Assembly: GCA_003170035.1 (NCBI GenBank)
Contig: PMZX01000206.1
Coordinates: forward strand, 6,685-20,785
Length of the DNA stretch: 14,101 nucleotides
Source: Myxococcales bacterium
GTDB lineage: Bacteria > Myxococcota_A > Polyangia > Fen-1088
Reading direction: 5' to 3'
Shown in pieces: positions 1-14,101 of the stretch (position 1 is the stretch's first letter; every line of letters starts with the position of its first letter). Under the pieces are notes generated by a model. That model worked only from the letters and a program-made list of their open reading frames with translations. It had not been told where the DNA came from and did not search any database. The translations under genes and the position numbers were made by a program.

Positions 1-1005
1 GCGCGTGCCGCCTTCCACGTGGCAACCAGCGCACGGCTTGTCTGCGAACTGCCCCTTGTGCACTCCCCGGTGCTGGTGACAGGTGACGCACGCGCCTGGG
101 CTGTACGTGAGCTGCTTACCCCGTTCGTGGCACTTGCGGCAGTCCAGGGTCTGATGTTTGCCGAACAGGGCAAAGCCGAAGCGGCGATGGTCCACCTTGG
201 CTTCTTTCCAGGGACGCCCGGTGAAGTGGCAGGAGGTACACTTGGCGGTGTCGACGGTCACCGGGTGGAAAGGACGGTGGCAGTCGGCGCATTTGCGTGG
301 CGGGGTGCGACCCGCCATCTGAGCCTTGGCGTGGCACTTGGTACAAGGCTGTTCCAGGTGCTTCCCATCGAACGCGATCCCCGAGTAGCGGCCGTGCGGC
401 TCCAACCACTCGGACAGGTGCATGCCGCGCACGAACTTGCCAGCGGGATGGCAGGTGTCGCACTTCTGGGCGAGCTGGGTTTCGGTGAAGGCATGGACGT
501 TCTTGTGACAGCTCTGGCAATCCTGCGAACGGCCGAGATAGGTGATGCGACCCGACTTCATTCTCCGGGTGTGGCAGGAGGTGCAGGCGACCTTGGCGTG
601 GTTGTTTATGAGCGAGAATCCGGTCTTGCTGTGGTCGAAGGTTTCGTGCCCGCCCACGTGCTTCCAGTCGATGATGTTGAACTCTCGCCCCTTGTGCTCG
701 GGGTGACAGCGCAGGCACGGCCCGGTGAACGTTGCGTGCAGACCACGATGCTTGGCCAGCTCATCCTTGAGCGTCTTGTGGTCGTGGCAGCCGAGGCACT
801 TGGCGTCCGTAACACCGTGATTGGCCTCGTGGCACTGCGGGCAGCCCTCCGAGTTGTCGAAGGCGGCATGGCTCTCGTTGAGCGGCCCGGGCGCCACCCG
901 GAAGAAAGACTGCTGCGCGACCACCAGAGGAATGGCGAACAGGCTCGCCAAGAGCAAGCAGCCAAGGCCGAGCAGGCGCGTTCTTGTCGTCGACCGAGGC
1001 CTCAT
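1..1005 (-). CDS. Exported multiheme c-type cytochrome with at least 12 haems (3' end outside window)
   Basis: The frame opens at an ATG overlapping the TPR gene stop (ATGA, 1005-1002) and runs without a stop to the window edge, 335 codons. Residues 1-30 are a signal peptide (basic MRPRSTTRTR, hydrophobic core, VVA before QQ). Twelve CXXCH motifs start at residues 55, 70, 97, 141, 163, 182, 221, 239, 256, 289, 306 and 325, roughly one per 23 residues, with many additional His available as distal ligands. Repeated units of the form H-x2-F-x-H-x-K-T-x-F (such as HETFDHSKTGFSLINNH) followed by CTSCH match multiheme cytochromes of the cytochrome c3/c7-like type in delta-proteobacteria. It is probably periplasmic and moves electrons toward or away from the outer-membrane barrel. 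Final haem count unknown because the gene is cut. Confidence 0.93.
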   Translation of the reverse strand, partial: MRPRSTTRTRLLGLGCLLLASLFAIPLVVAQQSFFRVAPGPLNESHAAFDNSEGCPQCHEANHGVTDAKCLGCHDHKTLKDELAKHRGLHATFTGPCLRCHPEHKGREFNIIDWKHVGGHETFDHSKTGFSLINNHAKVACTSCHTRRMKSGRITYLGRSQDCQSCHKNVHAFTETQLAQKCDTCHPAGKFVRGMHLSEWLEPHGRYSGIAFDGKHLEQPCTKCHAKAQMAGRTPPRKCADCHRPFHPVTVDTAKCTSCHFTGRPWKEAKVDHRRFGFALFGKHQTLDCRKCHERGKQLTYSPGACVTCHQHRGVHKGQFADKPCAGCHVEGGTR

Positions 1006-2327
1006 CGCCGATGTCGCGCCTTTGCCTTGGACTTGCCCCGGCCGGGCTTCTTGATCTGTTTCTTGGGCTTCTCCTGCGGTTCCAATACGACCGGCGGATT
1101 CTCGGCCGGGCGGGGCTCGGGCTCAGCAAGTGCAGCCACTCGGGCTGCGGCCAGACTGGAACGTCGCGGCCAGTCCTCGAACGCCGTCAGGTCGCGCGCC
1201 AGCCCGGTGGCCTTGGCCTCGACCAGCCAGTCGAATGCATCAAGCACGAAGGCTGCCTGGCCATTCACTGCTGCAATGGCCTGGCCAAGACTGCGCCTGG
1301 CTGCGACCGGATCGTTCGCGCGAGCCTGCGCGAGCGAGAGGGCGAAGTCTTGCTGAAAGAGCGCAACTGCCGGAGCGGGACGCGCCGACGCGGCCGCGGG
1401 GGTGTTGGCGGCCCGCGCGCCGGCAAACTGTTTCGCTGCCAGACGCGCCCAGGCCGAGTCCGGCGCGACGCGCGCCAGACTGTCGACCTGTCTGCGGACA
1501 GCCGCCTGGTTTTCCTGGCGAGCCTCGAACCACGCTTGTTCGTAGCGGTGGGCCAGCCACAGCGGGCCGAGCTCAAAGGCTCGATCCCAAGCTTGCCGAG
1601 CCGCCTTCACATCGCCTTTGTATTCGAGGGCGGTGGCCAGCAGATAGTGGAACTCGGGATCTCGGTCAAAGGTCGGGCGCATCGACTCCAGTTCAGGCAA
1701 ACGTGTGGCCCGCTCCTGTCGTGACGCCACGGCCAGGTCGGCCAGGATTCGTTGCCCGGATGCGGGAATGGTTGCCGCAGACGAGAGATACGGCCGGATG
1801 CGGCCGAGGCGGGCGGGGTCAGCGTCCTGGTACCGGTATAGAGCCGCCTCGCTGCGCACCATGAGATCGAGGTGAGGATCGTGCTCGTCGAGTGTGGCCC
1901 TCGGACCACGCAGAAGCGCGAGGAACTGCGCGACCCGATCCAGCTCACCCTCCTTGAGGAAGGTGGCCAGACTGCGCGCCACATGCTCGCGTTCTTCGAC
2001 CGCCCGGCGTGCAAGGCCCGAGCGCACGATCCAGCCAGCCACCGCCCCGACGCCGAGGACAAGCGCCAGCAGGGCGAGTCGTCTGAACGGGGCGCCATGC
2101 CGTCGTGTCGTGCGGGTTGCGCCCAGGTATTGCCCAGGATCGAGCCACGGACCGAACACACTCTCGCCGAACAGGCTGGCCAACTGGCGGTCGAAGCCGG
2201 AATCCCCTTGGTCGCGCGTGACCGCCTCTCGGTGGGCACGGCCCGCTTGGCTCTCGTCCGGCCGAGGACGGAGTCCGGGGCGCCCATCGCTGTTTGGTGG
2301 GAATGAAGGGCCCCGTGTGGTCACCAT
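1002..2327 (-). CDS. Membrane-anchored TPR-like protein of the cytochrome gene group
   Basis: The product has 441 residues. About 80 polar N-terminal residues end in a basic cluster (RTTRRHGAPFRR) before one membrane helix (about 84-101, LALLALVLGVGAVAGWI). By the positive-inside rule the N-terminus is cytoplasmic and the rest periplasmic. Residues 105-390 are helical with TPR-like repeats (FHYLLATALEYKGDVKAARQ, RAFELGPLWLAH, SLAQARANDPVAARRSLGQ). The C-terminus is Pro- then Lys/Arg-rich (KPKKQIKKPGRGKSKAKARHRR). Periplasmic TPR proteins assist cytochrome assembly (the TPR part of CcmI/NrfG binds apocytochromes), so a role in maturing or assembling the flanking cytochromes is plausible but inferred. 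GGGAG lies 6 bases before the ATG. The stop overlaps the next gene as ATGA. Confidence 0.82.
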   Translation of the reverse strand: MVTTRGPSFPPNSDGRPGLRPRPDESQAGRAHREAVTRDQGDSGFDRQLASLFGESVFGPWLDPGQYLGATRTTRRHGAPFRRLALLALVLGVGAVAGWIVRSGLARRAVEEREHVARSLATFLKEGELDRVAQFLALLRGPRATLDEHDPHLDLMVRSEAALYRYQDADPARLGRIRPYLSSAATIPASGQRILADLAVASRQERATRLPELESMRPTFDRDPEFHYLLATALEYKGDVKAARQAWDRAFELGPLWLAHRYEQAWFEARQENQAAVRRQVDSLARVAPDSAWARLAAKQFAGARAANTPAAASARPAPAVALFQQDFALSLAQARANDPVAARRSLGQAIAAVNGQAAFVLDAFDWLVEAKATGLARDLTAFEDWPRRSSLAAARVAALAEPEPRPAENPPVVLEPQEKPKKQIKKPGRGKSKAKARHRR

Positions 2328-3052
2328 GGATTACTCCCATGACAGGGGGCGGTGGTACCCGCGCAGGTCTTGGTCACCGGATCCCAGGTGCCGGATGGCG
2401 GGATGACATCGACAAGACCGTCAACGTGAAGATAGGGGTCAAGGATGGTCTTCAAGTCAGCAGAAACCACATTGCTGTGGCAGGTGTCGCAGGAGTACGC
2501 GCTATGCAACGGATGCGAGGCGCCCAGACCCGCCGCGGTCATGGCGTGGCATGAATTGCATTTGATCTGCGAACCATCGACCTTGGTCCAGCGGGGTGGG
2601 GCTGGGACGAAGGTTCCCGGCAGGGGGCCGCCGTGACAGTAGGTATTCGTGCAGGTTTCGGTCGTGCGGTTCCAGGCTGGAGAGGCCCCTAGGGTTTGCG
2701 CCAGCGATCCGAATTCCACCACCGTTCCACCGGAGAAAGGATCCGGGTGGGCGTCACCGTCCATCACGGTGGGCACCGGGTGGCATTCCTCGCAGGCGAC
2801 TGGGCCGGAGATGGATCCCTCTTGCATGTGGGACTGATGGGCGCCGACGCCGATGTAACTCGTGCTGGTTGATCCGTTGACCGCCAGCGGAGGAGCCGCA
2901 TTCTTCGGGCTGCCGTGGCACGAGTAACAGTTGAACTTGGCCGGGAGACCATCGCCGAGCGGGCTGCGCTGACAGCCCACTCCGCACAACAGCAGCACCC
3001 CGACTAGAACGGGCGATGGGCCCTGTATTGGGCGGCAAGAAGCGCGGCCCAT
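2321..3052 (-). CDS. Putative outer-membrane lipoprotein multiheme cytochrome with CXXCH, CX4CH and CX6CH motifs
   Basis: The product has 243 residues. The N-terminus has a hydrophobic core and GVGC at 24-27, a reasonable lipobox. Haem-binding motifs: CYSCH 42-46, CEECH 87-91, CTNTYCH 134-140, CNSCH 165-169, CDTCH 188-192, and a C-x6-CH at 230-238. The order, with YCHG, CNSCH and CDTCH blocks spaced by His residues, is that of the Geobacter-type CxxxxCH/CxxCH family, found in outer-surface cytochromes of metal-reducing delta-proteobacteria. Four haems are secure; the two longer motifs may or may not bind haem. GGAGG lies 7 bases before the ATG, which overlaps the barrel stop (TGATG). The stop overlaps the next start by 7 bases. 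Likely role: electron exchange at the outer membrane together with the barrel. Confidence 0.85.
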   Translation of the reverse strand: MGRASCRPIQGPSPVLVGVLLLCGVGCQRSPLGDGLPAKFNCYSCHGSPKNAAPPLAVNGSTSTSYIGVGAHQSHMQEGSISGPVACEECHPVPTVMDGDAHPDPFSGGTVVEFGSLAQTLGASPAWNRTTETCTNTYCHGGPLPGTFVPAPPRWTKVDGSQIKCNSCHAMTAAGLGASHPLHSAYSCDTCHSNVVSADLKTILDPYLHVDGLVDVIPPSGTWDPVTKTCAGTTAPCHGSNPW

Positions 3053-4455
3053 CAGAAATCCTCCCGAAGGGAAAGAAACACCGACTGAATGGTCCGGTCG
3101 ACGATCTCCGCGGTGTAGCGTGCGCGCACCTCCAGCCAGGGCAGGGCGCGCACCGCGACCGTCCCGAAAACGGTGCGGGCATTCTGCAGCTCTTCTACGT
3201 CGCGGTAGTAGTTGACCTTCCAGCGCTGATAGTAGGTGCCGGCTTCGACCTTGACCCTGCGGATGGAGTAGCCGGCCGATCCGCCGAGGGTCAGGAACGA
3301 ATCATTGGCCAGGGACCAGGGGACGTAGTTCCATTCGAGGATTCCCGTTGCGAAGAGGCTCTTTAACCCCAGGTTGTTGACCTCGGTCTGAAAGTAGACG
3401 CCGCCGGTATTGCGATTGAACGGGCTCTCGGCACCACGCAGAAGCTGGCGGACGCGCCATCCCGCACGCAGATTGAGAGTGGTGAGCTGGCCCAGCCCGA
3501 TCTCCTTCCAGACTTCCAGACGAGCGCGCAGATTGGGCAGGCTGGGGCCGAGGAGTGAGTAGAATGGGTTTTCGTTCTCGCTGATCTCGCCCAGGGTCCG
3601 GAGCTGCGCGCTGGCCTGGGCATCTATCCCGGCGCTGATGGACGGAAATGCCATGCGCAGGGCGCCCCCGGCATGGGACGCGCTCCGGTTGAGCCCCCGC
3701 ACGAAAAGCCTGGCCCAGCCGTTCTCGAAGCGCGTCGACAGGGTCAGGCCATAGGAATGGGCGTAGACCCAGTCCCTTTGCTGCGCGTCCTGGGAAAGAA
3801 CCGTGTCGTGCTCGAAGCGCGAGTCGACCTCGAGGCGAAGGTTCTCGCTCGGTCGATACCCCGCGCCCGCGCACATTACCCAGTTCTCGAACAGCCCCGG
3901 CTGTACCTCGAAGAAGTGGACAGTCCGTCCCGCGTAGCCGAAGAGTGAAAGCTGGCGCTCCCACAGGCGCAGGCCCAGCGACCCTCCGTCGAAGGTTATC
4001 GGCAATCCATGCTCGCTCGCTTGCCGACCGAGGCGCAGGTATTCGAGCGGAAGACTGCGCCGCCATTCAGCCGACAGCGCGTAGACCACGATGAGGGGCT
4101 GGCGGTAGTCAGACGTCTCCCCGAACAGGTCGGGCTGGCCCGAGGGCACATGCCCATCGAGGTCGTACCAAAATGCGGCTGAGATCTGGCCCTGCAGATG
4201 ATCGCGATAGCCCCTGCCTTGCCCATCGAGAGTCAGCCGCAGGTCCTGGTCGGGCGTCGGGTTGGCGGCGACCGGCACCCCGAGCACCCCGGATGTGGCC
4301 GCTGACCCTGACGGGGCGTTTCGCACGCGATACTCCTGCGCGAGCGACAGGTCACCGGACCACGCGCGCTCAGGCTCGACCCGCACTTGTGCGGTAGCAG
4401 CGGCGGACTCCGGTCCGGCAAGGGTCGCGAGAAGGGTCAAGGGCCACAGAACCAA
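3052..4455 (-). CDS. Outer-membrane beta-barrel protein, candidate porin of a porin-cytochrome conduit
   Basis: The product has 467 residues. A hydrophobic leader (VLWPLTLLATLAG) with an Ala-rich cleavage region (AAATA) is followed by alternating polar and aromatic beta strands throughout (for example SLGLRLWERQLSLFGYAGR and RVKVEAGTYYQRWKVNYY). The C-terminal residue is Phe, as recognised by the outer-membrane assembly machinery. There is no plug domain, TonB box or CXXCH. Size and context fit the barrels that sheath multiheme cytochromes in porin-cytochrome complexes, but sequence alone does not separate this from a generic barrel. The start is uncertain: a stop lies in frame at 4479-4477, the only upstream candidate is the TTG at 4455, its Shine-Dalgarno is poor and the n-region lacks a basic residue. 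The stop overlaps the next start by one base (TGATG). Confidence 0.8.
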   Translation of the reverse strand: MVLWPLTLLATLAGPESAAATAQVRVEPERAWSGDLSLAQEYRVRNAPSGSAATSGVLGVPVAANPTPDQDLRLTLDGQGRGYRDHLQGQISAAFWYDLDGHVPSGQPDLFGETSDYRQPLIVVYALSAEWRRSLPLEYLRLGRQASEHGLPITFDGGSLGLRLWERQLSLFGYAGRTVHFFEVQPGLFENWVMCAGAGYRPSENLRLEVDSRFEHDTVLSQDAQQRDWVYAHSYGLTLSTRFENGWARLFVRGLNRSASHAGGALRMAFPSISAGIDAQASAQLRTLGEISENENPFYSLLGPSLPNLRARLEVWKEIGLGQLTTLNLRAGWRVRQLLRGAESPFNRNTGGVYFQTEVNNLGLKSLFATGILEWNYVPWSLANDSFLTLGGSAGYSIRRVKVEAGTYYQRWKVNYYRDVEELQNARTVFGTVAVRALPWLEVRARYTAEIVDRTIQSVFLSLREDF

Positions 4456-5100: not shown

Positions 5101-7677
5101 TCAGAACCTGATCGTCACCTCCAGCGTTCCCTCGGGCGCGGCCTTGGCGAGAGTCGTCGACGATTCGCCAGTCAGCTTGTTGGCAATGGCAGCTGCTGTG
5201 GCTTCGTCACCGGCCAGACGCTCGACCTTGGTGATCTTTCCCGCCCGGTCGACTGTGACCCGGAGACGAAGCGTGCTGCCGGGTTTGGCTTGCGGGCAAC
5301 CTTGCTGTTCGGCCACGCGGCGAATGATGGCGAGCAGGGCCTTGCTGTCACCCAGATTCTGACTCTTGCCGGGTGTCAGCCTGACCGAGCACACGGGCGC
5401 CTTCTTATCCTTGGCGGCCTTGCCCTCGGCCTCGTCGTTGCCGTCGGCGAGCGCATCCACTCTTCCGCCCTTGCCGGCCCCTCGCGCTGTGGAGGCAAGT
5501 CCCGAGATCGGGGCGCTGGGTGCGGCGGAAGCTGGTTTGGGGGCGACCATCGGCCGCGACTCCGATTTCTTGGCCGCGCGCAACGGCTGGGCGGCCGGCG
5601 CGCCTGTAACGTGCGAGTAGGCAATCCCACGCAATGCCTGTTCGGGTCCTGCTGAGCCAACCGCGAGATTGGACACGCCCTCGGGCATGGGAAGCGGCTG
5701 GCGCACGGTCTCCAGTTGCCCAGCGCGATTCACCACCTGCGAATCCACCGCCACGAATGAGGTGAACGGGGTGAGCAGGCTGTAGCCCAGGCCCAGACCG
5801 GTGATCGTGTCCTCGACCTCCTGGCCGCCGCCCATGTGCAGTTCGTCTTCCAGGATCTCGACCCACTTGCGCGCCCACAGCGCGCGCAACGCCGCGTTTT
5901 CCCGGCGCGCATCGGCCGGGCGCAGGTCGATGCTGTGTGCGAACTTCCCGCGGCCGCTGCGGCCGGTGATCTCGATCTTGCCCGGCCGGTCTCCCTTGTA
6001 CTTGCCGAAGAGCAGGAGCGGTCGCTCGGCCAGCAGGTCAGGCACCTTCTCGGGCGCGACGTCGTAGGCGTCAAAGCCCTGCATGTGCACCTGGATGTCA
6101 GTCAGCACCGGGCGCTCGATCATGTGGCGCAGCTTCTCGGCCTGTGCCGCGGCCTTTTCCGGACGCGACACCACGAACGGCTCGCCCAGACCAGCGCGCG
6201 CCATGCCCTCGATCAGCCCGCGGTTGACCGACGAGCCGATGCCAAAGGCAAACAGGTTGGCCTGGTCCAGCCGCTCGCGGATGAAGCGGAAGGCCTGTGC
6301 CTCCACGCCCACGTAGCCATCGGTGATGACCACCACGGTGCGCGAGGTCCCGCGGCCCAGGGATGGAATTGCGTAGGCCGCCTGCAATCCGCCCATCAAC
6401 TCGGTGCCGCCGCCTCCGCTCTGGCGCAGGATCACGTCCAGGCCCTCGCGGACGTTCTTTTCATTGGCCGGCCTGGAACCCGATGGGCTCCACACGTAGT
6501 TCGCGCCTGAGAAAAGCGCCAGGTTGAAGTGGTCGGTGGGGCGCAGTCGCGACAGCAGCTCGCGCATCAGCGTCTTGGCCGTGTCCAGGGGGAAGCCGTG
6601 CATGGAGCCGGACACGTCGAGCAGGAAGATGTACTCGCGCGGGGGAATGTCTGCCTCGCCGGGCCGACGGGGGGGCTCCATCAGCATAGCGAAAAACTTC
6701 TCGCCCGGGCGGTCGGGTCCCGCCGACGGTTGTTCAAACAGTAACAGGCCCGTCTCGATCTTGTCGCCGGCCAGTCGGTAGTGCAGGACGAAGTCCTTGT
6801 TGCCGCCGCCCGATTGATCGAGACGGACGTCTGCGGTGGTGGGTCCCGCGTAGCTGACCGCGATCTTGTGCGAAGGCGACGATACTTCCTTGAGCGCGAT
6901 GCCGGTCTGCATGTGAACCTTGATGTCAAAGGCGTAGGGTTCCTTCTCGCTCTCGGACAGGTGGGGATTGGCCATCCATTGATCGGTCTTCGGGTTGGCC
7001 CCGCCGGGATAGCGCGGGCCCACCACGGTCGGGTAGACGAACTCGTAGGTGGCGTTCTCGGGCAGGATCATCTCGCTGTAGTCGAGTTCGACCTCGATGC
7101 GGTCGCCGGGCATGATGTTGGCGACGCTGGTGGTGAAGACATTGGGCCGCTCCTGTTCGAGCAGCGAGGCCCGCTGCCCGGCGCGCTTGGCCGCCTCATA
7201 CTCGGCCCGCGCTTCCTGCTTGCGCGCGATATGCGCCTCGATGGTGCGCGCGCCAATCCTCATGCGCATGGCGTGCACGGCTGCGCGGGTCGAGGCGGGA
7301 AACACGTACACCGCCTCGATGGGCTTGCCGGCGCTGTTCTCGAAGACCTGGTGCACCTTGACCGCCGCGATGACCCCGGCAATGTCCACCTCGGCGCGCG
7401 TCTCCTTGAGCGGCAGGCGCTCTGTCTCTGGATTGCCCCCTGCCACATAGAAGTACGGTGCCAGGGTGCGATCGTCGGATGGATCGGCCTGATCGCGTGG
7501 GCCGCCGGCAAAGCCGACGCCGCCAGTGTTGTGCAGGCCCTTGAGCACCGCGGCCGGGCTCTTGGCAACGGCCTTTGCGGACGGATCGCCGGCCGCGCCA
7601 GCCGCGCGATCTGCGCAGACCAGCAGGCCAACTAGGGTGAGAACGCCAACCATTCTTTGAGTTTTCACGCAACGCAT
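5101..7677 (-). CDS. Exported VIT and von Willebrand A domain protein with AgmX/PglI-like C-terminal domain
   Basis: The product has 858 residues. A signal peptide (about 1-28, core GVLTLVGLLV) is followed by a VIT domain (about 85-205, with VHQVFENSAGKPIEAVYVFP and ANIMPGDRIEVELDY). A VWA domain begins near 348; its metal-ion-dependent adhesion site DVSGS is at 354-358, with a later ITDG. Next comes the segment with LLTPFTSFVAVD typical of bacterial inter-alpha-trypsin-inhibitor-like proteins. A linker rich in Ala, Lys and Pro leads to a C-terminal domain (about 762-858) matching that of the 188-residue protein at 8445-9011, including a Cys pair about 30 residues apart. VIT-VWA proteins are envelope proteins thought to bind ligands or other proteins through the metal site; no specific role can be assigned. 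The stop lies within 4 bases of the next open frame. Confidence 0.9.
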   Translation of the reverse strand: MRCVKTQRMVGVLTLVGLLVCADRAAGAAGDPSAKAVAKSPAAVLKGLHNTGGVGFAGGPRDQADPSDDRTLAPYFYVAGGNPETERLPLKETRAEVDIAGVIAAVKVHQVFENSAGKPIEAVYVFPASTRAAVHAMRMRIGARTIEAHIARKQEARAEYEAAKRAGQRASLLEQERPNVFTTSVANIMPGDRIEVELDYSEMILPENATYEFVYPTVVGPRYPGGANPKTDQWMANPHLSESEKEPYAFDIKVHMQTGIALKEVSSPSHKIAVSYAGPTTADVRLDQSGGGNKDFVLHYRLAGDKIETGLLLFEQPSAGPDRPGEKFFAMLMEPPRRPGEADIPPREYIFLLDVSGSMHGFPLDTAKTLMRELLSRLRPTDHFNLALFSGANYVWSPSGSRPANEKNVREGLDVILRQSGGGGTELMGGLQAAYAIPSLGRGTSRTVVVITDGYVGVEAQAFRFIRERLDQANLFAFGIGSSVNRGLIEGMARAGLGEPFVVSRPEKAAAQAEKLRHMIERPVLTDIQVHMQGFDAYDVAPEKVPDLLAERPLLLFGKYKGDRPGKIEITGRSGRGKFAHSIDLRPADARRENAALRALWARKWVEILEDELHMGGGQEVEDTITGLGLGYSLLTPFTSFVAVDSQVVNRAGQLETVRQPLPMPEGVSNLAVGSAGPEQALRGIAYSHVTGAPAAQPLRAAKKSESRPMVAPKPASAAPSAPISGLASTARGAGKGGRVDALADGNDEAEGKAAKDKKAPVCSVRLTPGKSQNLGDSKALLAIIRRVAEQQGCPQAKPGSTLRLRVTVDRAGKITKVERLAGDEATAAAIANKLTGESSTTLAKAAPEGTLEVTIRF

Positions 7678-7758: not shown

Positions 7759-8136
7759 TCAGCACCCAATCGAGCGGATGGGATAGGCGCGGATTCGGGC
7801 GTCTCGTGTCACGACGACCAGCCCATCGGCCAGTGCTTGAGCGACCAGGAGGCGATCGAAGGGATCGCGGTGCAGGGCAGGAAGTCCCTGCAGCGACCTG
7901 ATGTGGCGAAGGCAGACCGGAAGCTCGGTGAAGCGCTGGCGTTGCATCTGTTCCGCCAGGTCAGAAGGCGCATCCAACTTGCCCAGGGCTCTTTTGATCT
8001 CAATCTCCCATGCCGAGGCCACGCTGACGAACACGGTGTTGCCCGGATCCTGCAGGCGACGGCGCGCCTCAGCAGCCAGTTCGCCCGGGCGCGCGAGTGC
8101 CCACAGCAGGGCGTGCGTGTCGAGGAGCAGCTTCAC
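7759..8136 (-). CDS. vapC: VapC-family PIN-domain toxin (ribonuclease)
   Basis: The product has 125 residues, a normal length for a PIN-domain VapC. The four acidic residues of the metal-dependent nuclease site are present: D6 in LLLDTHALLW, E44 in SAWEIEIK, D94 in HRDPFDRLLVAQA, and D112 in VVTRDARI. VapC toxins cleave specific tRNAs or rRNA when freed from the antitoxin; the target here is not predictable. The GTG start overlaps the antitoxin stop, with GGTGG just upstream. All catalytic residues are intact, so the pair is likely functional. It lies between two paralogous AgmX-domain genes and may be a later insertion there. Confidence 0.92.
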   Translation of the reverse strand: MKLLLDTHALLWALARPGELAAEARRRLQDPGNTVFVSVASAWEIEIKRALGKLDAPSDLAEQMQRQRFTELPVCLRHIRSLQGLPALHRDPFDRLLVAQALADGLVVVTRDARIRAYPIRSIGC

Positions 8137-8408
8137 TTACCACCGCGGCGCGGGCGCGGTTTGGCCGCAGGGACGGGCTCGCCCTCGAAGAGCTTGATCA
8201 CATCGTCGGGTGTTGCGTCGAAGTCGTCGGCCATGCGGACTTTGCCTTCCCAGCCGCCCAGTGGTCGCGCCGTCCGGTCAGGTGTGCAGGGCACCAGCTT
8301 GACGTAGGGACGCCCGGCCTTGGCGATCACGATTTCTTCGCCGGCCAGGGCTTCTTCGAGCAAGCGCGAAAGGTGGGTCTTGGCCTGCTGGACGTTGATC
8401 AACTTCAC
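8133..8408 (-). CDS. Phd/YefM-family antitoxin of a VapC toxin-antitoxin module
   Basis: The 91-residue protein starts at a GTG and reads MKLINVQQAKTHLSRLLEEA, then IVIAKAGRPYVKLVP. This is the N-terminal DNA-binding fold of the Phd/YefM antitoxin family. The C-terminal part, with DDFDATPDDVIKLFEGE, is the segment such antitoxins use to occlude the PIN toxin active site. A basic Pro/Arg tail (AAKPRPRRGGK) extends beyond where these proteins usually end. The antitoxin comes first and overlaps the toxin by 4 bases (GTGA), the usual arrangement for keeping the antitoxin in excess. It should bind and neutralise the VapC below and repress the pair. Confidence 0.9.
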   Translation of the reverse strand: MKLINVQQAKTHLSRLLEEALAGEEIVIAKAGRPYVKLVPCTPDRTARPLGGWEGKVRMADDFDATPDDVIKLFEGEPVPAAKPRPRRGGK

Positions 8409-8444: not shown

Positions 8445-9011
8445 TCAGCGCCCCGCCCGCCGGAGGCTGATCTGCGCGACGCCCGTGGTGGCCGAGTTGA
8501 CCTTTGACAGGGAAACCTGCCCCACCAGCTTGCGACCAAGGTCGTCGCCTAGCTTCTCGTCGCCGGACAGTCTTTCGGCCGCCGTGATCTTCCCACCGCT
8601 GTCGATGGAGAGGCGCAGACGTAGGGGATTGGCTGTCTGTGCGGAAGTACAGGGCTCGGCCTTCGGCCCGCGTTGAATGACGGCGACTGCCGCGCGCAGA
8701 TCCCCCACTTCGCGGTCGCTCTCCGGTCTTGCCTCAAGCCTACAGGTCGTCTTTCCTCCCGTATCGTGGCCGTGGGCACCCTGTCCGTTTCTCTCGCGAC
8801 CGCGGCGGTGCTGGTCGAGTTCTTCTTCGGGAAGGCCGGCGAGAGGGTCGGGTGGAACTTGGCGCCGGTCGCTGATCAGGCCTTTCGGCCGTGCGCCGAT
8901 CGCACCGTCGGCATGAGCGGCCAGGGCGTGGTGGTCTGAGAGTGATTCTGCTGCGCAAAAGAACGTGGCAAGGCAGAGCACGACTTCCTCGGACGGGTGC
9001 GCGCGTCGCAT
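8445..9011 (-). CDS. Small exported protein with AgmX/PglI-like C-terminal domain
   Basis: The product has 188 residues. The ATG at 9011 has AGGAGG 6 bases upstream. A hydrophobic stretch at about residues 9-21 (VVLCLATFFCAA) looks like a signal peptide, followed by a low-complexity charged linker to about 85. The last 100 residues form a compact domain (NPLRLRLSIDSGGKITAAER, then LSGDEKLGDDLGRKLVG) that resembles the C-terminus of the VIT-VWA protein encoded at 5101-7677. It is the type found at the C-terminus of AgmX/PglI proteins and loosely similar to TonB C-terminal folds. Both versions keep two cysteines about 30 residues apart (TCRLE and EPCTS here), possibly a disulfide. It probably works in the periplasm or at the outer membrane; its partner is unknown. 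The N-terminal linker has no recognisable similarity and could hide an old frameshift. Confidence 0.75.
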   Translation of the reverse strand: MRRAHPSEEVVLCLATFFCAAESLSDHHALAAHADGAIGARPKGLISDRRQVPPDPLAGLPEEELDQHRRGRERNGQGAHGHDTGGKTTCRLEARPESDREVGDLRAAVAVIQRGPKAEPCTSAQTANPLRLRLSIDSGGKITAAERLSGDEKLGDDLGRKLVGQVSLSKVNSATTGVAQISLRRAGR

Positions 9012-9090: not shown

Positions 9091-9223
9091 ACAAGCCGGG
9101 CTTCACCCGCTGGCGCAGATCTTCGATCTCACCGTCGATTCGCGCCACGCGCCGCCCGATCAGCGCGACATAGGTGAACACCGCCCCCCAGATGAAACCG
9201 TAGGCCAGGGCCACGTAGGTCAT
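9089..9223 (-). CDS. ccmD: Small membrane protein CcmD
   Basis: CcmD is a small inner-membrane component of the CcmABCD complex, needed for release of holo-CcmE. This 44-residue protein starts with an ATG overlapping the ccmC stop (ATGA) and ends at TAG, 9091-9089. It has one hydrophobic segment (about residues 3-22, including ALAYGFIWGAVFTYVALIG) followed by a basic, charged cytoplasmic tail with RRVARIDGEIEDLRQRV. This topology, the size and the position directly after ccmC are those of CcmD. The sequence is too short for identity by similarity alone, so the call rests largely on context. Confidence 0.85.
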   Translation of the reverse strand: MTYVALAYGFIWGAVFTYVALIGRRVARIDGEIEDLRQRVKPGL

Positions 9224-9924
9224 GATGACTTTCCCTCCGCATCTTCAACCGCAATCGCCAGTTCCACCAGGCGCGCCTGGGCGCGCTCGACGCGCATTCG
9301 CACGGTCAGCAGCACGCCCCACAGGGCGCTAAAGATGGCCAGCGACAAGAAGAAGGGTAGGCGCATCCCCGAGGCCAGTGACGAAACGACCTTGGTGGTG
9401 GGGTGCAGGCCGCGCCAGACGTTGACGCTGAGGTAGACCAGGGGCACGTCCGCCGCTGCGAACAAGGCCATCGCTGCCGCCAGCCGGCGGCCACCTGCGC
9501 CGCCATAGCGTCGTGCCAGCCCGTAGGCGATCAGTATCAGCCAGAGCAGCAGCGAGGAGGTGAGGCGTACATCCCAGGTCCAGAACACGCCCCACGCCGC
9601 CCGCGCCCACAGCGGACCGGTTACCATCACGCACAGGCCAAACAGCACGCCCAGTTCGGCGCTGCACACCGCCAGCCGATCTCCGCGTTCGGAGCCGCGA
9701 AACAGGTAGGCCAGACTGCCGCCCGCGCACACGAAGGTGGACAGCATGAGCAGCCAGGCGCAAGGCACGTGGAAGTAGAAGATCTTCTGTACGATGCCCA
9801 TGGTCTTCTCCAGCGGCGCATTCGCGACCAGGAAAATCACGACGAAGAACCCGTGCATGGTCAGCAACAGGCCCACCAGGAAAGGAGTGCTGGACTTGTG
9901 GGCCGAGGGCATGCGCGAAAGCAT
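9220..9924 (-). CDS. ccmC: Haem handling protein CcmC
   Basis: CcmC presents haem to the chaperone CcmE on the periplasmic face of the inner membrane. The 234 residues contain about six membrane segments, the tryptophan-rich WWD-type region at 103-121 (including GPLWARAAWG and FWTWDVRLT), and the two family histidines flanking it: H52 in FHVPCAW and H174 in GLHPTTKV. Together these are diagnostic. The ATG at 9924 has GGGAG about 8 bases upstream; a Met at residue 5 is an alternative start. The stop overlaps the ccmD start as ATGA. Confidence 0.95.
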   Translation of the reverse strand: MLSRMPSAHKSSTPFLVGLLLTMHGFFVVIFLVANAPLEKTMGIVQKIFYFHVPCAWLLMLSTFVCAGGSLAYLFRGSERGDRLAVCSAELGVLFGLCVMVTGPLWARAAWGVFWTWDVRLTSSLLLWLILIAYGLARRYGGAGGRRLAAAMALFAAADVPLVYLSVNVWRGLHPTTKVVSSLASGMRLPFFLSLAIFSALWGVLLTVRMRVERAQARLVELAIAVEDAEGKSS

Positions 9925-9927
9925 AGC

Positions 9928-10629
9928 TCAATCTCCCATGACGACCGGCTCGAACGTCCACAGCCCGACCACCACGAACACCACGTCGAGGGCCGCGAGA
10001 AAGCGCGTCCAGAACAGCGCGGGATCCAGATCCGGGGCCGCAGGGTCGAGCAGATAGGCGGTTGCACGACTGGCCGCCAGCAGCACCGGGATCACGATGG
10101 GGAAGAGCAGGGCGCCCAGAAGCGCGTCGCGGCTGCGGGCGCGCAGGAGCGCCGCCGAGAAGATCACGCCCACCGAAGCAAAGCCGATGGTTCCCAGCAG
10201 CAGCAGCAGGCCCAGCCAGAGGGCGTGCGGCCAGAGCACGGCCGAGAACAGCGCCGCGAGCAGAGGCGTCAACAGCAATTCCACCAGGAACATGATGGCC
10301 GCGGTGGCTGCCAGCTTGCCGGCATAGATCGCCGAGCGCGGGACCGGCGACAGCAGCAGCGAGCGGATGGCCTCGCTCTCCCGTTCGCGGTCAAAGGTGC
10401 GCGACAGGGCCACCGTGCCCGAGAACAACACCGCAACCCACAGGATGCCTGCGACCACATCGGGGCCGACCGTGACTTCTTGACCCGAGATGAAGGCGAA
10501 GGAAAACACCAACACCACCAGCGCGGCCATGAAGCCCATGGTGTAGAGCACCTCGCGACTGCGCCCCTCGATGTGCAGATCCTTCCAGGCGATGCGCCCG
10601 GCCTGACCAGCCCAGCTAGGCCTTGCCAC
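9928..10629 (-). CDS. ccmB: Haem exporter membrane subunit CcmB
   Basis: CcmB is the membrane partner of CcmA in System I cytochrome c maturation. From the GTG at 10629 the product has 233 residues, close to the usual CcmB length of about 220-230. A cytoplasmic start with WKDLHIEGRSREV is followed by about six hydrophobic segments. The loop TFDRERESEAIRSLLLSPV after the second segment is characteristic of the family. The open frame extends upstream to 10725, but that part is Arg/Pro-rich, overlaps ccmA and looks like read-through in a GC-rich frame. The stop is followed after 3 bases by ccmC, whose GGGAG ribosome site lies within the end of ccmB. Confidence 0.93.
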   Translation of the reverse strand: MARPSWAGQAGRIAWKDLHIEGRSREVLYTMGFMAALVVLVFSFAFISGQEVTVGPDVVAGILWVAVLFSGTVALSRTFDRERESEAIRSLLLSPVPRSAIYAGKLAATAAIMFLVELLLTPLLAALFSAVLWPHALWLGLLLLLGTIGFASVGVIFSAALLRARSRDALLGALLFPIVIPVLLAASRATAYLLDPAAPDLDPALFWTRFLAALDVVFVVVGLWTFEPVVMGD

Positions 10630-11332
10630 GAGTGGCCTCCTCGTAGAGAGCGCGAACCTCGTCGGCGGAGAAACTCGTGCGGGTTTCGTCGCAGGCCACG
10701 CGGCCACGGCGAAGCACGACCACATGCGTGGCGATGGCAGCGGCCGCCACGAGATCGTGAGTCACCAGGACCACCAGCCGCCCCGCCTCCCGCTCGCGTT
10801 GCAGCTCGCCGGCCAGCCACGCGGCGCCGGCAGGGTCGAGGGCCGAACCTGGTTCGTCGAAGAGCAGGATCTCGGGCTCGTGCAGCAGGGCGCGCGCCAG
10901 CGACAGCCGTTGCAGCATGCCGCGCGAGAAGGTCCGCGCCGCCCCTTCACGCCGGACGCCGTCCAAACCCACGCGCGCCAACATCTCGTCGATGCGGCGC
11001 TCGCCGTTTGCGATCCCGTACAGCGAGGCAAACAGGCGCAGGTTCTGTCGGGCAGAGAGATCTCCGTACACACCCGGTTCGTGGCCGACGTAGCCGATGC
11101 TGGCGCGCAAGCGGCTGTGGCGCGACAGGTCTTCATCGCCCAGGATGATGCGGCCCTGCGACGGTTGCGACAGCGTCGAGAGCAGGCCGAGCAGGGTGGA
11201 CTTGCCGGCGCCGTTGGGGCCCAGCACCGCCGCCACCCGACCAGGGACGAAGGCCAGCGACACGTCGGCGAGCGCCCGGTGCCGGCCGAAGGTCTTGCCG
11301 ACGTTCACCAGGCGCAGCTCACGCTCGCTCAT
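10616..11332 (-). CDS. ccmA: Haem exporter ATP-binding subunit CcmA
   Basis: CcmA is the ATPase of the CcmABCD complex, whose ATP hydrolysis releases holo-CcmE from CcmC. The 238 residues have a complete ABC nucleotide-binding domain: Walker A GPNGAGKST at 38-46, a signature of the form FSRGMLQRL at 135-143, Walker B ILLFDEP at 155-161 and the switch His in THD at 192. The FSRGM-type signature and the YVGHEP stretch after the Q-loop region suit CcmA-type ABC proteins better than generic transporters, and the neighbours ccmB and ccmC settle the identity. The gene begins 4 bases after the previous stop with only a weak Shine-Dalgarno sequence, so coupled translation is likely. Its end overlaps the ccmB start by 14 bases. 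Confidence 0.95.
   Translation of the reverse strand: MSERELRLVNVGKTFGRHRALADVSLAFVPGRVAAVLGPNGAGKSTLLGLLSTLSQPSQGRIILGDEDLSRHSRLRASIGYVGHEPGVYGDLSARQNLRLFASLYGIANGERRIDEMLARVGLDGVRREGAARTFSRGMLQRLSLARALLHEPEILLFDEPGSALDPAGAAWLAGELQREREAGRLVVLVTHDLVAAAAIATHVVVLRRGRVACDETRTSFSADEVRALYEEATRGKA
10636..10641 (-). promoter_or_regulatory. Ribosome binding site that fixes the ccmB start
   Basis: A perfect AGGAGG lies inside the end of ccmA, 6 bases upstream of the GTG at 10629. It favours that GTG over the longer open frame reaching 10725, which would overlap ccmA by over 100 bases. Confidence 0.75.
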
Positions 11333-11336
11333 GGGC

Positions 11337-13046
11337 TCACACGGACCTGCCGCCAGGCCTTCTCACGTCGGTGTCGCCAACCCGCTCAGCATCCATGGCC
11401 ACGAGCGCGGCCATCAGTTCGGCCCGCCGCTGGGCCAGCGGCGCGTCGTCAGCCCCCGCGGCCCGCCGCGCGCGTTCCACTTCCACCAGTTCGGCGAGGA
11501 GCTGCTCGCGCCGACTGCTGCCCAGGTCCTTGGGCCGCTCCTCCGTCCCGGGCCTTCGCAGGCCCAGCATGGCCGCGAACGCCAGCGCAGCGACCAGCAC
11601 CGTCGCGATGGTCTTGCCCAGACTACCGCGCGCAGGCAGGCCGGATATGGCGATGCTCAGGACCCCATTGCGGGGCACGCTGGCGAACTGGAAGAGCTGC
11701 ATTCGCGCTCCCCGATCATCCGTCTGGGAAGGCATGGCCTGCAGGCCGGGCGCCGTGAGGGTCAGGTGAGCCGTCTCCGGCACCATGACCAGCGGGCTCT
11801 CGATACCGAGTGGCATGGGCTGGCGGAACGTGATTCTGCTTTCGCCGGCCGTGGGCAAGAAGAAACCGAACCGGGCCTGCACCGGGATCCCGGAAGAACT
11901 TGCCGGCGGAACCGCTTCCCGCAGGAACATGGTCGAACTTTGGTCCGGCTCCAGGCGCGCGCCGCCCTCGATCGCGCTTCCGTTGCTGGCCCCGGCAGGA
12001 AGGGGAACGGGAAGGCCGCCTTGGCCAGGGCTGAAGACCCGGTCGGATGTGTTCTCCAGCACCAGATTCTCCATGACCGCCAACGCGTCTTCACGCAGGT
12101 CGATGAGCATCTTGGACGAACTGGACACCTGCAAGACCGATGGGTCGCTGGTCTGGCCGGGCACGCGTAGCTCCCCGGCAGCACCACGCTCGGCTGACAG
12201 ACGGATGCGACCGCTGCCGAGTTGTACGCCGTCGCGCTTGATGACAGCCGTGTATTCGTAGGGGTCGCCGGTCTGCAGTCCCTGGAAGCGGACGAATCCA
12301 TCCTTGTCGGAGCTGCTGGTCACGAACTCTATGTCGTCTGGCCTGCCGGTGCTGCGTTCCAGCTTTACCTCCTGGCCAGCCATGGGCGCGCCGTTGCTGT
12401 CGACCAGACGCAGCTCCAAGCTTCCCGCAGCCAGGCCGGCTTTTTCAGCCACTGCTCCCGGGAGCGCGCGAACCGCCGGCTGGGCCGCGTGGCTGCCATG
12501 CCCGGGCGTGCTTGCGTGTGGATTGGCCTGCGCGCTTGCCCCTTCGCCGTCGCCGTCGCCTTCGCCTTGGCCCTCGCCTGCCCGGGAAAGCAGCATGAGG
12601 CGCGCGCCTCCCTGGGCCGGGACGGCGAAAGACGCGGTTTGCAGTTGCTCGCCATCGACCACGGCTTGGGCGTGAAACTCGGCGCCGACGGGAAGATCGG
12701 AGAATGTCGCGCGGCCATCGGACTTGGTTTCTTCCGTCCGCTCGGTGGCCTTGCCACCCGGAGCGGTCACCGTGGCCACGACTTTGACCTCGACAGCCGC
12801 ATTGGACAGCGAGCCGCGACCCACCCGCACGGTCACCGTGCCCACCGGCAGGTCGCCGACCATCAGAGGACGCGCTGCCATGGCTTGCGCATCGTGCTCT
12901 CCCGCTGGCGGCTGCGCGACGGCAGTCCCGGCAAGAAGCAGCAGCATCGCTGATATGGGAACCCGGCAGGGTGGCGGGCGGTCCCGAAGCCCCCGCAGGG
13001 GGAGCCGGCGGGCTCCCCACGCGACTAGGCAGGAACGCCGATTCAT
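11337..13046 (-). CDS. Exported, membrane-anchored protein with Ig-like/carboxypeptidase-regulatory-like repeats, within the ccm operon; function unknown
   Basis: The protein has 569 residues. The start at 13046 is chosen because a GGAGG lies 7 bases upstream, the ATG overlaps the ccmF stop, and a signal peptide follows (basic n-region, core about 31-43, likely cleavage after VA at 44). The frame stays open further upstream but there overlaps ccmF. Two beta-rich regions at about 66-155 and 205-298 show the pattern of carboxypeptidase regulatory-like or Ig-like modules (VGDLPVGTVTVRV; GSLELRLVDSNGAPMAG). They are separated by a Gly/Glu/Asp low-complexity linker (158-169) and a His-containing stretch (177-187). 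A second beta-rich part covers about 310-475. One membrane helix (477-496) precedes a cytoplasmic helical tail rich in Arg, Glu and Ala (512-553). I do not recognise a named family. Its place between ccmF and ccmA suggests a lineage-specific partner in cytochrome maturation; this is inference. Confidence 0.85.
   Translation of the reverse strand: MNRRSCLVAWGARRLPLRGLRDRPPPCRVPISAMLLLLAGTAVAQPPAGEHDAQAMAARPLMVGDLPVGTVTVRVGRGSLSNAAVEVKVVATVTAPGGKATERTEETKSDGRATFSDLPVGAEFHAQAVVDGEQLQTASFAVPAQGGARLMLLSRAGEGQGEGDGDGEGASAQANPHASTPGHGSHAAQPAVRALPGAVAEKAGLAAGSLELRLVDSNGAPMAGQEVKLERSTGRPDDIEFVTSSSDKDGFVRFQGLQTGDPYEYTAVIKRDGVQLGSGRIRLSAERGAAGELRVPGQTSDPSVLQVSSSSKMLIDLREDALAVMENLVLENTSDRVFSPGQGGLPVPLPAGASNGSAIEGGARLEPDQSSTMFLREAVPPASSSGIPVQARFGFFLPTAGESRITFRQPMPLGIESPLVMVPETAHLTLTAPGLQAMPSQTDDRGARMQLFQFASVPRNGVLSIAISGLPARGSLGKTIATVLVAALAFAAMLGLRRPGTEERPKDLGSSRREQLLAELVEVERARRAAGADDAPLAQRRAELMAALVAMDAERVGDTDVRRPGGRSV
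12541..12579 (-). repeat. Imperfect hexanucleotide repeat encoding a Gly/Glu/Asp linker
   Basis: Degenerate tandem copies of a GGCGAN-type hexamer (minus strand) encode alternating Gly with Glu, Asp or Gln at about residues 157-169 of the 569-residue protein. It joins the first beta-rich module to a His-containing segment. It is probably a flexible linker and a site prone to length variation. Confidence 0.6.
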
Positions 13047-14101
13047 TCTGTCGCCTCCGTGCCAGCAGCAAGGCGCGCCTGCAATTCTTCCTCGATGAAG
13101 GCACGGCGTTCTGCGCTGGTGATTGCTTCCTGCCTTAGCAGCGGATCGATCATGCGGTACCAGGCAAGAGCCGTCAGCCCGAGGCCAAGTCCGCCCACAC
13201 CGAGCACCACCAGCGGCGCGCCCAGGCGCAGGCGAGCGAGCAGCACGCCAAAGACCAGGGCGGCGGCTGCCCCTAGCAACGTGATGGCCACGCTGCTCGA
13301 CGAAAAGCGAATGCGGGACACGGCGCGGACCGATCGGCCGTCGGGCAGCAGCACCAGAGTCGTGGCCGTGGCCATGAGCAGAAACCCCAGCCACATCCAG
13401 TCGACCAGAGGGTTGCTGACCAGCTTGAGAGCCGCCGTGCCGCCGTCCATGTCGTGGTTGCCCATAGTGACATAGAGATCCTCAGCCAGACCACGCAGGA
13501 TGGCGACCTGGGTGGCCGGCTCCTCGGGTCGTTTGTCGTAGACCCAGCGCGCCGGGAGCAGCTGACCGGCAGGCTTGCCGTCGAGCAGGACGGTGAGTTC
13601 GGCCGTCACCATCTGCTTCTGTCGATCCTCGGTCTGAGAAAACCCGTCAAATCGGATGCCATACTTGCCAAAGCTGTGGGTCTGGCCGACTGACAGGACC
13701 ACCGATTCCTCGTGCTGGAAGGCCTGGCCAGCAAAACCCAGGAACATGAGGGCGACGCCGAGATGGACCAGGTAGCCGGCGTAGGGGCGGCGGATCCGGT
13801 AGAGGAGCGCGCCGAGTGCGGCGCCCGGGCCCTGGCCCGTGCTGCGCATCCGGCCGGCTACGCCGCGGCCGATTTCCTGGACCACCGCTGCGGCGATGAA
13901 GCCCGACAGTGCTAGGCAGAGCAGCGCGGCCTTGGACGAGCCCAACCCGCCGATGGCGCAGGCGCCGGTGGTGACGATTGCCGCGACCACCGGCGCGATG
14001 AGGCGCCGGCGCACCTCGGGCAGCGCGGTTCGGCGCCAGGCCAAAATGGAGCACAGCCCGGTGAGCAGCAGGAGCGCGATCCCGATGGGCACCATCCAGC
14101 G
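13043..14101 (-). CDS. ccmF: Cytochrome c haem lyase subunit CcmF, 3' part (5' end outside window)
   Basis: CcmF is the inner-membrane haem lyase of System I; it takes haem from CcmE and joins it to CXXCH motifs on the periplasmic side. 352 residues are visible and the frame stays open to the window edge (codons for Arg-Trp precede the first Met, at 14095), so this is roughly the C-terminal half of a protein usually near 650 residues. Family marks, numbered from that Met: PYAGYLVHLG with a probable haem-ligand His at 111, a periplasmic segment around 130-225 containing the EDLYVTMG stretch, and the closing DWMWLG membrane segment at 232-250. CcmF normally ends soon after this. Here about 100 residues follow (251-350), with two more hydrophobic segments (about 268-287 and 293-312) and a charged helix. 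The stop overlaps the next start (ATGA), so the two are translationally coupled. The family call is firm; the role of the extension is unknown. Confidence 0.92.
   Translation of the reverse strand, partial: RWMVPIGIALLLLTGLCSILAWRRTALPEVRRRLIAPVVAAIVTTGACAIGGLGSSKAALLCLALSGFIAAAVVQEIGRGVAGRMRSTGQGPGAALGALLYRIRRPYAGYLVHLGVALMFLGFAGQAFQHEESVVLSVGQTHSFGKYGIRFDGFSQTEDRQKQMVTAELTVLLDGKPAGQLLPARWVYDKRPEEPATQVAILRGLAEDLYVTMGNHDMDGGTAALKLVSNPLVDWMWLGFLLMATATTLVLLPDGRSVRAVSRIRFSSSSVAITLLGAAAALVFGVLLARLRLGAPLVVLGVGGLGLGLTALAWYRMIDPLLRQEAITSAERRAFIEEELQARLAAGTEATE

Follow-up and report, generated by a model that had tools for sequence, protein, structure and literature searches.

A predicted trans-envelope electron conduit in Myxococcota that pairs an unnamed outer-membrane barrel family with a putatively two-module 27-haem cytochrome

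Among described porin-cytochrome conduits, PCC3 (He et al., 2017, PMC5566968; Gallionellaceae survey, PMC10734462) provides the nearest counterpart for the system considered here. The periplasmic cytochromes of Gallionellaceae PCC3 carry 21, 24 or 27 haems and are proposed to form a wire that spans the periplasm. PCC3 periplasmic cytochromes have 22–39 residues per haem (median 26), and the inner-membrane proteins of PCC3 and PCC4 share a signature of two WX3HX13H motifs plus SGXXG (PMC5566968). In PCC4 subgroup II, the inner-membrane protein has an iron-sulfur partner gene (PF13247), the two being annotated as a single gene in one genome (PMC5566968). Pcc systems such as OmbB-OmaB-OmcB place a barrel of 18–22 segments beside a periplasmic cytochrome, their outer cytochromes often have atypical CX3-15CH haem motifs and the Anaeromyxobacter Pcc has no outer cytochrome, according to PMC4245776. 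Here we describe a gene cluster in a 14,101-nucleotide stretch of DNA (the window) from an uncultured peatland Myxococcales bacterium (assembly GCA_003170035.1, contig PMZX01000206.1, positions 6,685 to 20,785). These genes, we consider likely, encode a trans-envelope electron conduit that connects the inner membrane with the outside and works like PCC3. The proposal draws on gene content, synteny, haem motifs, the b-haem ligand pattern and two cytochrome modules, as seen in sequence comparison, and on a modelled barrel fold; from these we infer localisation, assembly, electron flow and the role of a tetratricopeptide repeat (TPR) protein.

The window lies on a 23,028-base scaffold, directly to the right of a scaffold gap of 2 N. 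A sequence-only reading of the window had picked out four overlapping co-directional genes, and all four indeed lie on the minus strand at 1..4455, with overlaps of 1 base between barrel and lipoprotein, 7 bases between lipoprotein and TPR and 4 bases between TPR and cytochrome genes. Extending the view leftwards, as that reading had advised, added a redox protein of the inner membrane and one more lipoprotein cytochrome. The cluster comprises the following features, the last three of which lie to the left of the window on the same scaffold:

3052..4455, minus strand: outer-membrane beta-barrel, 467 residues, TTG start, 22 strands predicted by AlphaFold2
2321..3052, minus strand: putative small lipoprotein c-type cytochrome, 243 residues; TIGR01904 and PF09698 over cut-off, with motif counts
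1002..2327, minus strand: predicted membrane-anchored TPR-like protein, 441 residues; PF07719 below cut-off (E 0.0023), with hydropathy
1..1005, minus strand: N-terminal 335 residues of the 27-haem, predicted periplasmic cytochrome; 12 CxxCH motifs; Cytochrome_C7 and Cytochrom_c3_2 (Pfam) over cut-off
L002:5676-6680 (contig coordinates), minus strand: remainder of this cytochrome beyond the gap; 14 more CxxCH motifs and the end of another, by eye
L002:3762-5642, minus strand: iron-sulfur/membrane protein left of the window, 626 residues
L002:2582-3718, minus strand: Ser/Gly-rich dihaem lipoprotein left of the window, two CxxCH motifs

The order in the window genus is thus barrel, lipoprotein cytochrome, TPR protein, 27-haem cytochrome, inner-membrane protein and dihaem lipoprotein. 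The cytochrome had been read as exported and as having at least 12 haems. Its window part has a Sec-type signal and 12 CxxCH motifs, and full-length orthologues from four sister loci have 27 in 694–698 residues (25.7–25.9 residues per haem). Compared with solved structures, the cytochrome gave weak matches to unrelated multihaem proteins only (best E 0.076, or 0.0022 with profile A2; alignment A2 excludes the window's split protein and the cut L012).

The neighbouring inner-membrane protein is predicted to hold four 4Fe-4S clusters, from 16 Cys that are invariant in an eight-member alignment, and a dihaem cytochrome b, from two WX3HX13H motifs. The invariant positions of these motifs are W438/H442/H456 and W598/H602/H616, with S478/G479/G482 between them, and the pair occurs together with SGXXG in 8/8 aligned proteins. 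Two or more WX3HX13H motifs are found in 25 of 1242 open reading frames (ORFs) of at least 200 residues from the fetched loci, many of which overlap or are partly duplicate. Family searches at E up to 0.1 assigned Fer4 to 8/8, DUF4405 to 5/8 and a ferric-reductase domain to 4/8 of the aligned proteins, and HycB subunits are closest by sequence to the iron-sulfur part among solved structures. No family model matched the N-terminal domain, which looks CRP-like to us. The inner-membrane profile A5 matches a 292-residue Rhodocyclaceae protein (E 8e-28), and relatives of the membrane part come, where an organism is named, from Cloacimonetes, Kofleriaceae and Rhodocyclaceae. The dihaem lipoprotein has a long low-complexity Ser/Gly linker before its haem domain, conserved in L015 and L016, that could possibly serve as a surface stalk.

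The barrel belongs to a family so far without a name, with 22 strands in its AlphaFold2 model (m901f4c2e1f67; 52 sequences), which has a predicted local distance difference test score (pLDDT) of 82.8 and a predicted template modelling score (pTM) of 0.75 and supersedes an earlier run with 7 sequences (pLDDT 63). The first strand runs from residue 32 and the last to residue 466, so a plug domain would have no room. The TTG start codon has the same position in 6/6 species and is followed by a signal peptide without basic residues. An outer-membrane barrel ending in Phe had been proposed; the model bears out the barrel, and the Phe is not conserved (F is the last residue of one sister protein and L that of the other four; the distant G040 protein has Y there). 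Neither Pfam nor NCBIfam gave a family match to the window barrel at E 0.01, MtrB/PioB (TIGR03509) in NCBIfam included. Profile A1 recovered 137 homologues among 7994 scored candidates; the 120 of these that are listed carry no Pfam domain, and informative names, which two of them have, point to Polyangiaceae and Myxococcota. PF11854 matched 1/52 family members (E 0.0083). A scan of 20 genomes returned no MtrB/PioB, though its 14 controls gave nothing either, and neither fold search had an MtrB-like chain among the 50 matches listed, a result still compatible with that fold. Profile searches against known families, proposed by the sequence-only reading, gave no MtrB/PioB match over cut-off for the barrel and matched the cytochrome and the lipoprotein to c-type cytochrome families over cut-off. 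Strand positions that face the lumen show stronger conservation (mean entropy 1.41) than those that face the lipid (1.70; p 0.017), which is mild support at most because the faces were assigned by hydrophobicity. A plasmid collection contained no barrel match. G016 was considered as a barrel carrier (E 2.4e-4, 77 residues, internal stop) and rejected, as profile A3 at that locus reached only E 5.4.

The small lipoprotein has four CxxCH motifs, one CxxxxCH and, by eye, a GVGC lipobox. Near its C-terminus lies a CX6CH, with CX6CH or CX8CH in the sister species. The range of four to six haems follows from these motifs, the CX6CH being a possible sixth, and motif counts and lipobox agree with the original description of a putative lipoprotein with that many haems. 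This atypical-motif protein probably lies in the outer membrane. By eye, its lipobox is followed by DGLP or something close to it, as is the lipobox of the G040, G170, G065 and G226 proteins. The lipoprotein cytochrome of G040 (L017:9867-13055) is far longer, with 1062 residues, 20 CxxCH and 7 CxxxxCH, and several of its successive stretches match the window lipoprotein, as if this surface subunit had been enlarged through internal duplication.

The cluster is kept in five sister species to the extent that their contigs cover it. All six genes are present in L015 and L016 and five in L013, where the contig nearly ends, and L014, which has no match to the sixth gene among the matches listed; L012 ends within the cytochrome. 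The barrel, the TPR gene and the 27-haem cytochrome occur in 6/7 genomes of the genus (the cytochrome is interrupted by the gap in G000, the window's own genome, and truncated where the contig ends in G002, whose inner-membrane gene was not found on a 6,011-base contig that stops inside the cytochrome). The seventh, G001, is about 93% complete and has no barrel, TPR or inner-membrane protein, its only match to the 27-haem cytochrome being weak and 71 residues long. A second triad is present in the genus, G001 included (L069:5142-8942 in G000:C275, L070:24-4343 and L071:7908-11714). It consists of a CxxxxCH lipoprotein, an outer-membrane-protein-like (OMP-like) protein of about 420 residues (a 331-residue ORF in L069) that has no profile A3 and no Pfam match, and a 13-haem cytochrome.

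In the phylum at large, profile A1 found the barrel in 10 genomes of a 377-genome draw (G000 included) and profile A3 found it in 10 of an equal-sized draw, in which G110 was new. Ten non-genus loci were read (G040, G294, G162, G060, G211, G170, G065, G226, G272 and G110); the G272 contig ends in the barrel. A multihaem cytochrome adjoins the barrel in 9/9 readable loci, with 25, 11, 5 (contig end), 11, 13, 18, 11, 11 and 13 CxxCH motifs, some of these ORFs being N-terminally over-extended. Among eight of the nine cytochromes, a lipobox pattern before the first haem was matched only in the over-extended part of the G065 ORF. Next to the cytochrome, 5/6 readable loci (G040, G211, G170, G065 and G226) encode a lipobox-bearing CxxxxCH/CxxCH cytochrome. 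The order in these loci is barrel-cytochrome-lipoprotein, versus barrel-lipoprotein-TPR-cytochrome in the window genus. Synteny across relatives, the check that the sequence-only reading had recommended, upholds the pairing of barrel and multihaem cytochrome, and the neighbouring cytochromes and lipoproteins support a porin-cytochrome conduit whose surface subunit is small and through which electron transfer is inferred. That the barrel gene and the cytochromes are unrelated and adjoin by chance is hardly credible, given that the pairing recurs in seven families of the phylum besides the window's own and that barrel and 27-haem cytochrome are jointly absent from G001; nothing was found that favours it.

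An improbable reading is that the barrel is a solute porin serving a periplasmic multihaem reductase or a detoxification system, with no extracellular transfer. The barrel has no recognised function, and substrate porins, ushers and receptors are among its Foldseek neighbours, which would suit such a role; the consistent company of a multihaem cytochrome and the lipobox-bearing one that mostly follows it speak against it, as do family scans of the cluster proteins, which gave no catalytic reductase domain.

A division within the 27-haem cytochrome emerged when every CxxCH was replaced by X, to test whether the similarity reflects CxxCH spacing alone. The masked N-terminal part (about residues 30–170) matches cytochromes of other families (L072, L074, L076, L078, L080 and L081), and the masked C-terminal part (about 560–685) matches barrel-partner cytochromes in 7/9 loci, the other two being L030, cut by a contig end, and L099, which has no match. 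None of 12 masked control cytochromes matched below E 0.1. We tabulated modules against partners at E 1e-4 for 59 cytochrome ORFs in 29 loci, one of them without a cytochrome and 21 of them non-genus loci with cytochromes; the 21 exclude L069–L071, the second cluster of the genus, and the 29 exclude L012 (cut contig) and the window's own L002. Outside the genus, the N module is accompanied by the motif pair of the inner-membrane protein in 5/6 loci and by the barrel in 0/6, and 1/15 loci without this module have the motif pair. Non-genus loci with the C module have the barrel in 7/7 and the motif pair in 0/7, and the barrel occurs in 2/14 loci without it. Outside the window genus no locus belongs to both sets; the genus itself has both modules, both partners and both partner genes within one cluster. 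Fisher values for this table serve as description only, and part of the N-module association is a product of the selection, since loci were picked by barrel, cytochrome, lipoprotein or inner-membrane matches. With unmasked profile A2, weak C-terminal matches also appear in the barrel-less G033, G025, G024, G029 and G001, so exclusivity of the C module to barrel loci is not proven.

These sequence comparisons point to a 27-haem protein built of two modules, an N-terminal one of the type that partners the inner-membrane protein and a C-terminal one of the type that partners the barrel. Cytochromes kept without the barrel had been named as a case against the conduit. This case arises in part: some families that lack this barrel retain a cytochrome matching the N module, for the most part next to the inner-membrane protein and in some loci accompanied by a different OMP-like ORF. 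The masked C module was seen in barrel loci only. In L074 and L076, which have the N module, a beta-barrel-like ORF ending in F or W follows the cytochrome and has no significant profile A3 match, which suggests, without proof, that a barrel and its docking end are exchanged together. We offer as a conjecture, in which our confidence is limited, that the protein is a natural fusion of a module made for docking on the 4Fe-4S/cytochrome-b protein of the inner membrane with one made for entering this barrel family. Such a chimera, loaded by a TPR chaperone of its own, would form a single covalent chain of haems between inner membrane and cell surface in place of the usual diffusible periplasmic relay, and conduits across the phylum would evolve by exchanging barrel and barrel-docking end as a pair.

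Cytochromes with 20–35 haems were also seen in other families of the class (L074:7634-13819, L076:7854-12013, L078:7557-11458, L080:4120-10953 and L081:4828-10249). Most stand beside motif-pair proteins with or without the iron-sulfur part, some with OMP-like ORFs; L076 has no motif protein within the stretch read. These loci are perhaps further PCC3-like conduits. The few of the 30 relatives of the G040 cytochrome that are named with an organism are from Armatimonadota; like the relatives of the inner-membrane protein's membrane part, they place these components in other phyla too.

Several observations weigh against a PCC3-like conduit. A simple hydropathy scan did not confirm the five transmembrane helices of PCC3 for the inner-membrane protein, giving two segments in the window's protein and 5, 4 and 3 in L074, L072 and L077. 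The lipoprotein is not specific to this barrel, because CxxxxCH lipoproteins of other clusters match about equally well with haems masked, and in G110 no haem protein follows the cytochrome. Sequence searches of solved structures, run for the barrel by itself and for profile A3, returned nothing meaningful, and the fold matches are generic outer-membrane barrels of many functions. The inner-membrane motif pair occurs in none of the non-genus barrel loci, some of which have other modules nearby (HybA/NrfD-like in L032, by eye; 5-haem ORFs in L029, L034 and L035). A rival account is an ordinary Pcc conduit, in which only the C-terminal module serves the barrel, the other haems act as a reservoir or are fed by small diffusible cytochromes and the adjacent inner-membrane protein serves another partner; this account shares the conduit and denies the direct link. 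Partner cytochromes of as few as 11 haems, in loci without the motif pair, indicate that the barrel family does not require a wire across the periplasm. In the window genus, by comparison, the inner-membrane gene adjoins the cytochrome gene, and the N module is of a type found mostly beside that protein. We regard the ordinary arrangement as a serious though doubtful possibility.

If the conduit does work like PCC3, the inner-membrane protein would exchange electrons with quinol and/or a cytoplasmic donor and pass them to an elongated 27-haem periplasmic cytochrome, its N-terminal module turned toward the inner-membrane protein. The C-terminal module would enter the 22-stranded barrel, where the 4–6-haem surface lipoprotein, perhaps with the dihaem lipoprotein, would exchange electrons with an extracellular partner. 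MtrA, with 10 haems, is described as a rod of 104 Å (PMC4245776), and by this scaling the 27-haem protein would measure about 280 Å, which would suffice for a typical periplasm and outer membrane. The electron path may run in either direction. Inward flow, that is, extracellular electron uptake from Fe(II) or a syntrophic partner, for example, is compatible with the PCC3-like scheme and is a tentative option for us: PCC3 comes from a survey of Fe(II) oxidisers and is drawn with an extracellular donor in PMC5566968, and the 4Fe-4S domain could supply cytoplasmic reductions. Set against this option, the sequence contains nothing that fixes the direction, with no search aimed at an oxidase or at carbon fixation.

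The TPR protein would assist haem loading of the 27-haem apoprotein. It had been called a membrane-anchored TPR protein, and hydropathy indeed predicts one transmembrane segment (about residues 79–97); the TPR identity comes from the single weak PF07719 match. The gene is present in 6/39 genomes, all of the window genus. The remainder of the window includes cytochrome c maturation genes and other neighbours:

9220-9924, minus strand: ccmC; PF01578 over cut-off, NCBIfam ccmC below cut-off
9928-10725, minus strand: ccmB; PF03379 over cut-off, NCBIfam ccmB below cut-off
10616-11332, minus strand: ccmA; PF00005 over cut-off, NCBIfam ccmA below cut-off
13043..14095, minus strand: haem lyase CcmF/NrfE, C-terminal part; PF16327 over cut-off
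5101-7677: VIT/VWA protein, upstream of the conduit; TIGR03788 below cut-off
7759-8408: Phd-like antitoxin and PIN-domain protein, between ccmC and the VIT/VWA gene

The ccmC, ccmB and ccmA genes lie about 7 kb from the TPR gene, with ccmF further on. CcmI and NrfG are TPR proteins thought to handle apocytochromes (PMC3601427). By analogy with this precedent, and in view of the 4-base overlap with the cytochrome gene and the nearby ccm genes, we propose that the TPR protein is an apocytochrome chaperone for the 27-haem protein. The VIT/VWA protein has orthologues in L013, L014 and L016 and no match in L015. The C-terminal part of window 8445-9011 resembles the VIT/VWA tail by eye, and small ORFs of L014 and L016 match that tail.

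Predation, more than extracellular electron transfer, is what Myxococcota are known for; in peat, methane production and the respiration of Fe(III) and humics are in competition. Barrel profile A3 and the C-terminal module provide markers for a conduit family in this phylum. How the periplasm is crossed, and which end of the cytochrome enters the barrel, are open questions for most conduits, and the separate docking ends to which the comparison points make both testable with short constructs. Among the open-licence papers listed, titles and the starts of abstracts mentioned neither this barrel family nor a PCC3-like cluster from Myxococcota.

A comparison with described conduits places the cluster nearest to PCC3 in plan. 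The sequence-only reading had called the composition unfamiliar, which goes somewhat too far, as PCC3, with its long periplasmic cytochromes and an inner-membrane cytochrome b, was published in 2017 (PMC5566968). The four-part set of porin, extracellular multihaem cytochrome, periplasmic multihaem cytochrome and inner-membrane protein is present, the residues per haem of the 27-haem cytochrome fall within the PCC3 range and the inner-membrane motif signature is found in all eight aligned proteins. The barrel, in contrast, has 22 strands versus up to 42 predicted regions, the surface cytochrome 4–6 haems versus a median of 34 and the inner-membrane protein 626 residues fused to an iron-sulfur domain versus about 300; the extra TPR gene and the Myxococcota host differ as well. 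A very large extracellular cytochrome and a many-stranded porin are typical of PCC3 though not strict features of it. We do not class the cluster as PCC3, since, compared by description and not by sequence, its porin and surface cytochrome depart from those published. PCC4 subgroup II resembles the cluster in the motif pattern of its inner-membrane protein and its iron-sulfur partner, whereas PCC4 has three periplasmic cytochromes (4, 5 and 10 haems) and no extracellular one.

Broader likenesses extend to other conduit families. As in the Pcc systems summarised above, a barrel (here of 22 strands), an adjacent periplasmic multihaem cytochrome and an atypical-motif lipoprotein are combined, with lipoprotein and TPR genes in between in the window genus; the periplasmic cytochromes of that survey have 5–14 haems versus 27 here, again compared by description (PMC4245776). 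ExtABCD of Geobacter is likewise a conduit cluster with two small lipoprotein cytochromes (PMC6148476). Since that paper finds Ext and OmcB components to share no homology with each other, none between this cluster and Ext is expected by default. MtrCAB/PioAB share the functional plan only: the barrel has no MtrB/PioB family match over cut-off and 22 strands, not 26, and the cytochrome 27 haems, not 10. Relative to this known plan, the unnamed barrel family, the predicted iron-sulfur/cytochrome-b fusion, the putatively two-module cytochrome and the TPR partner are new.

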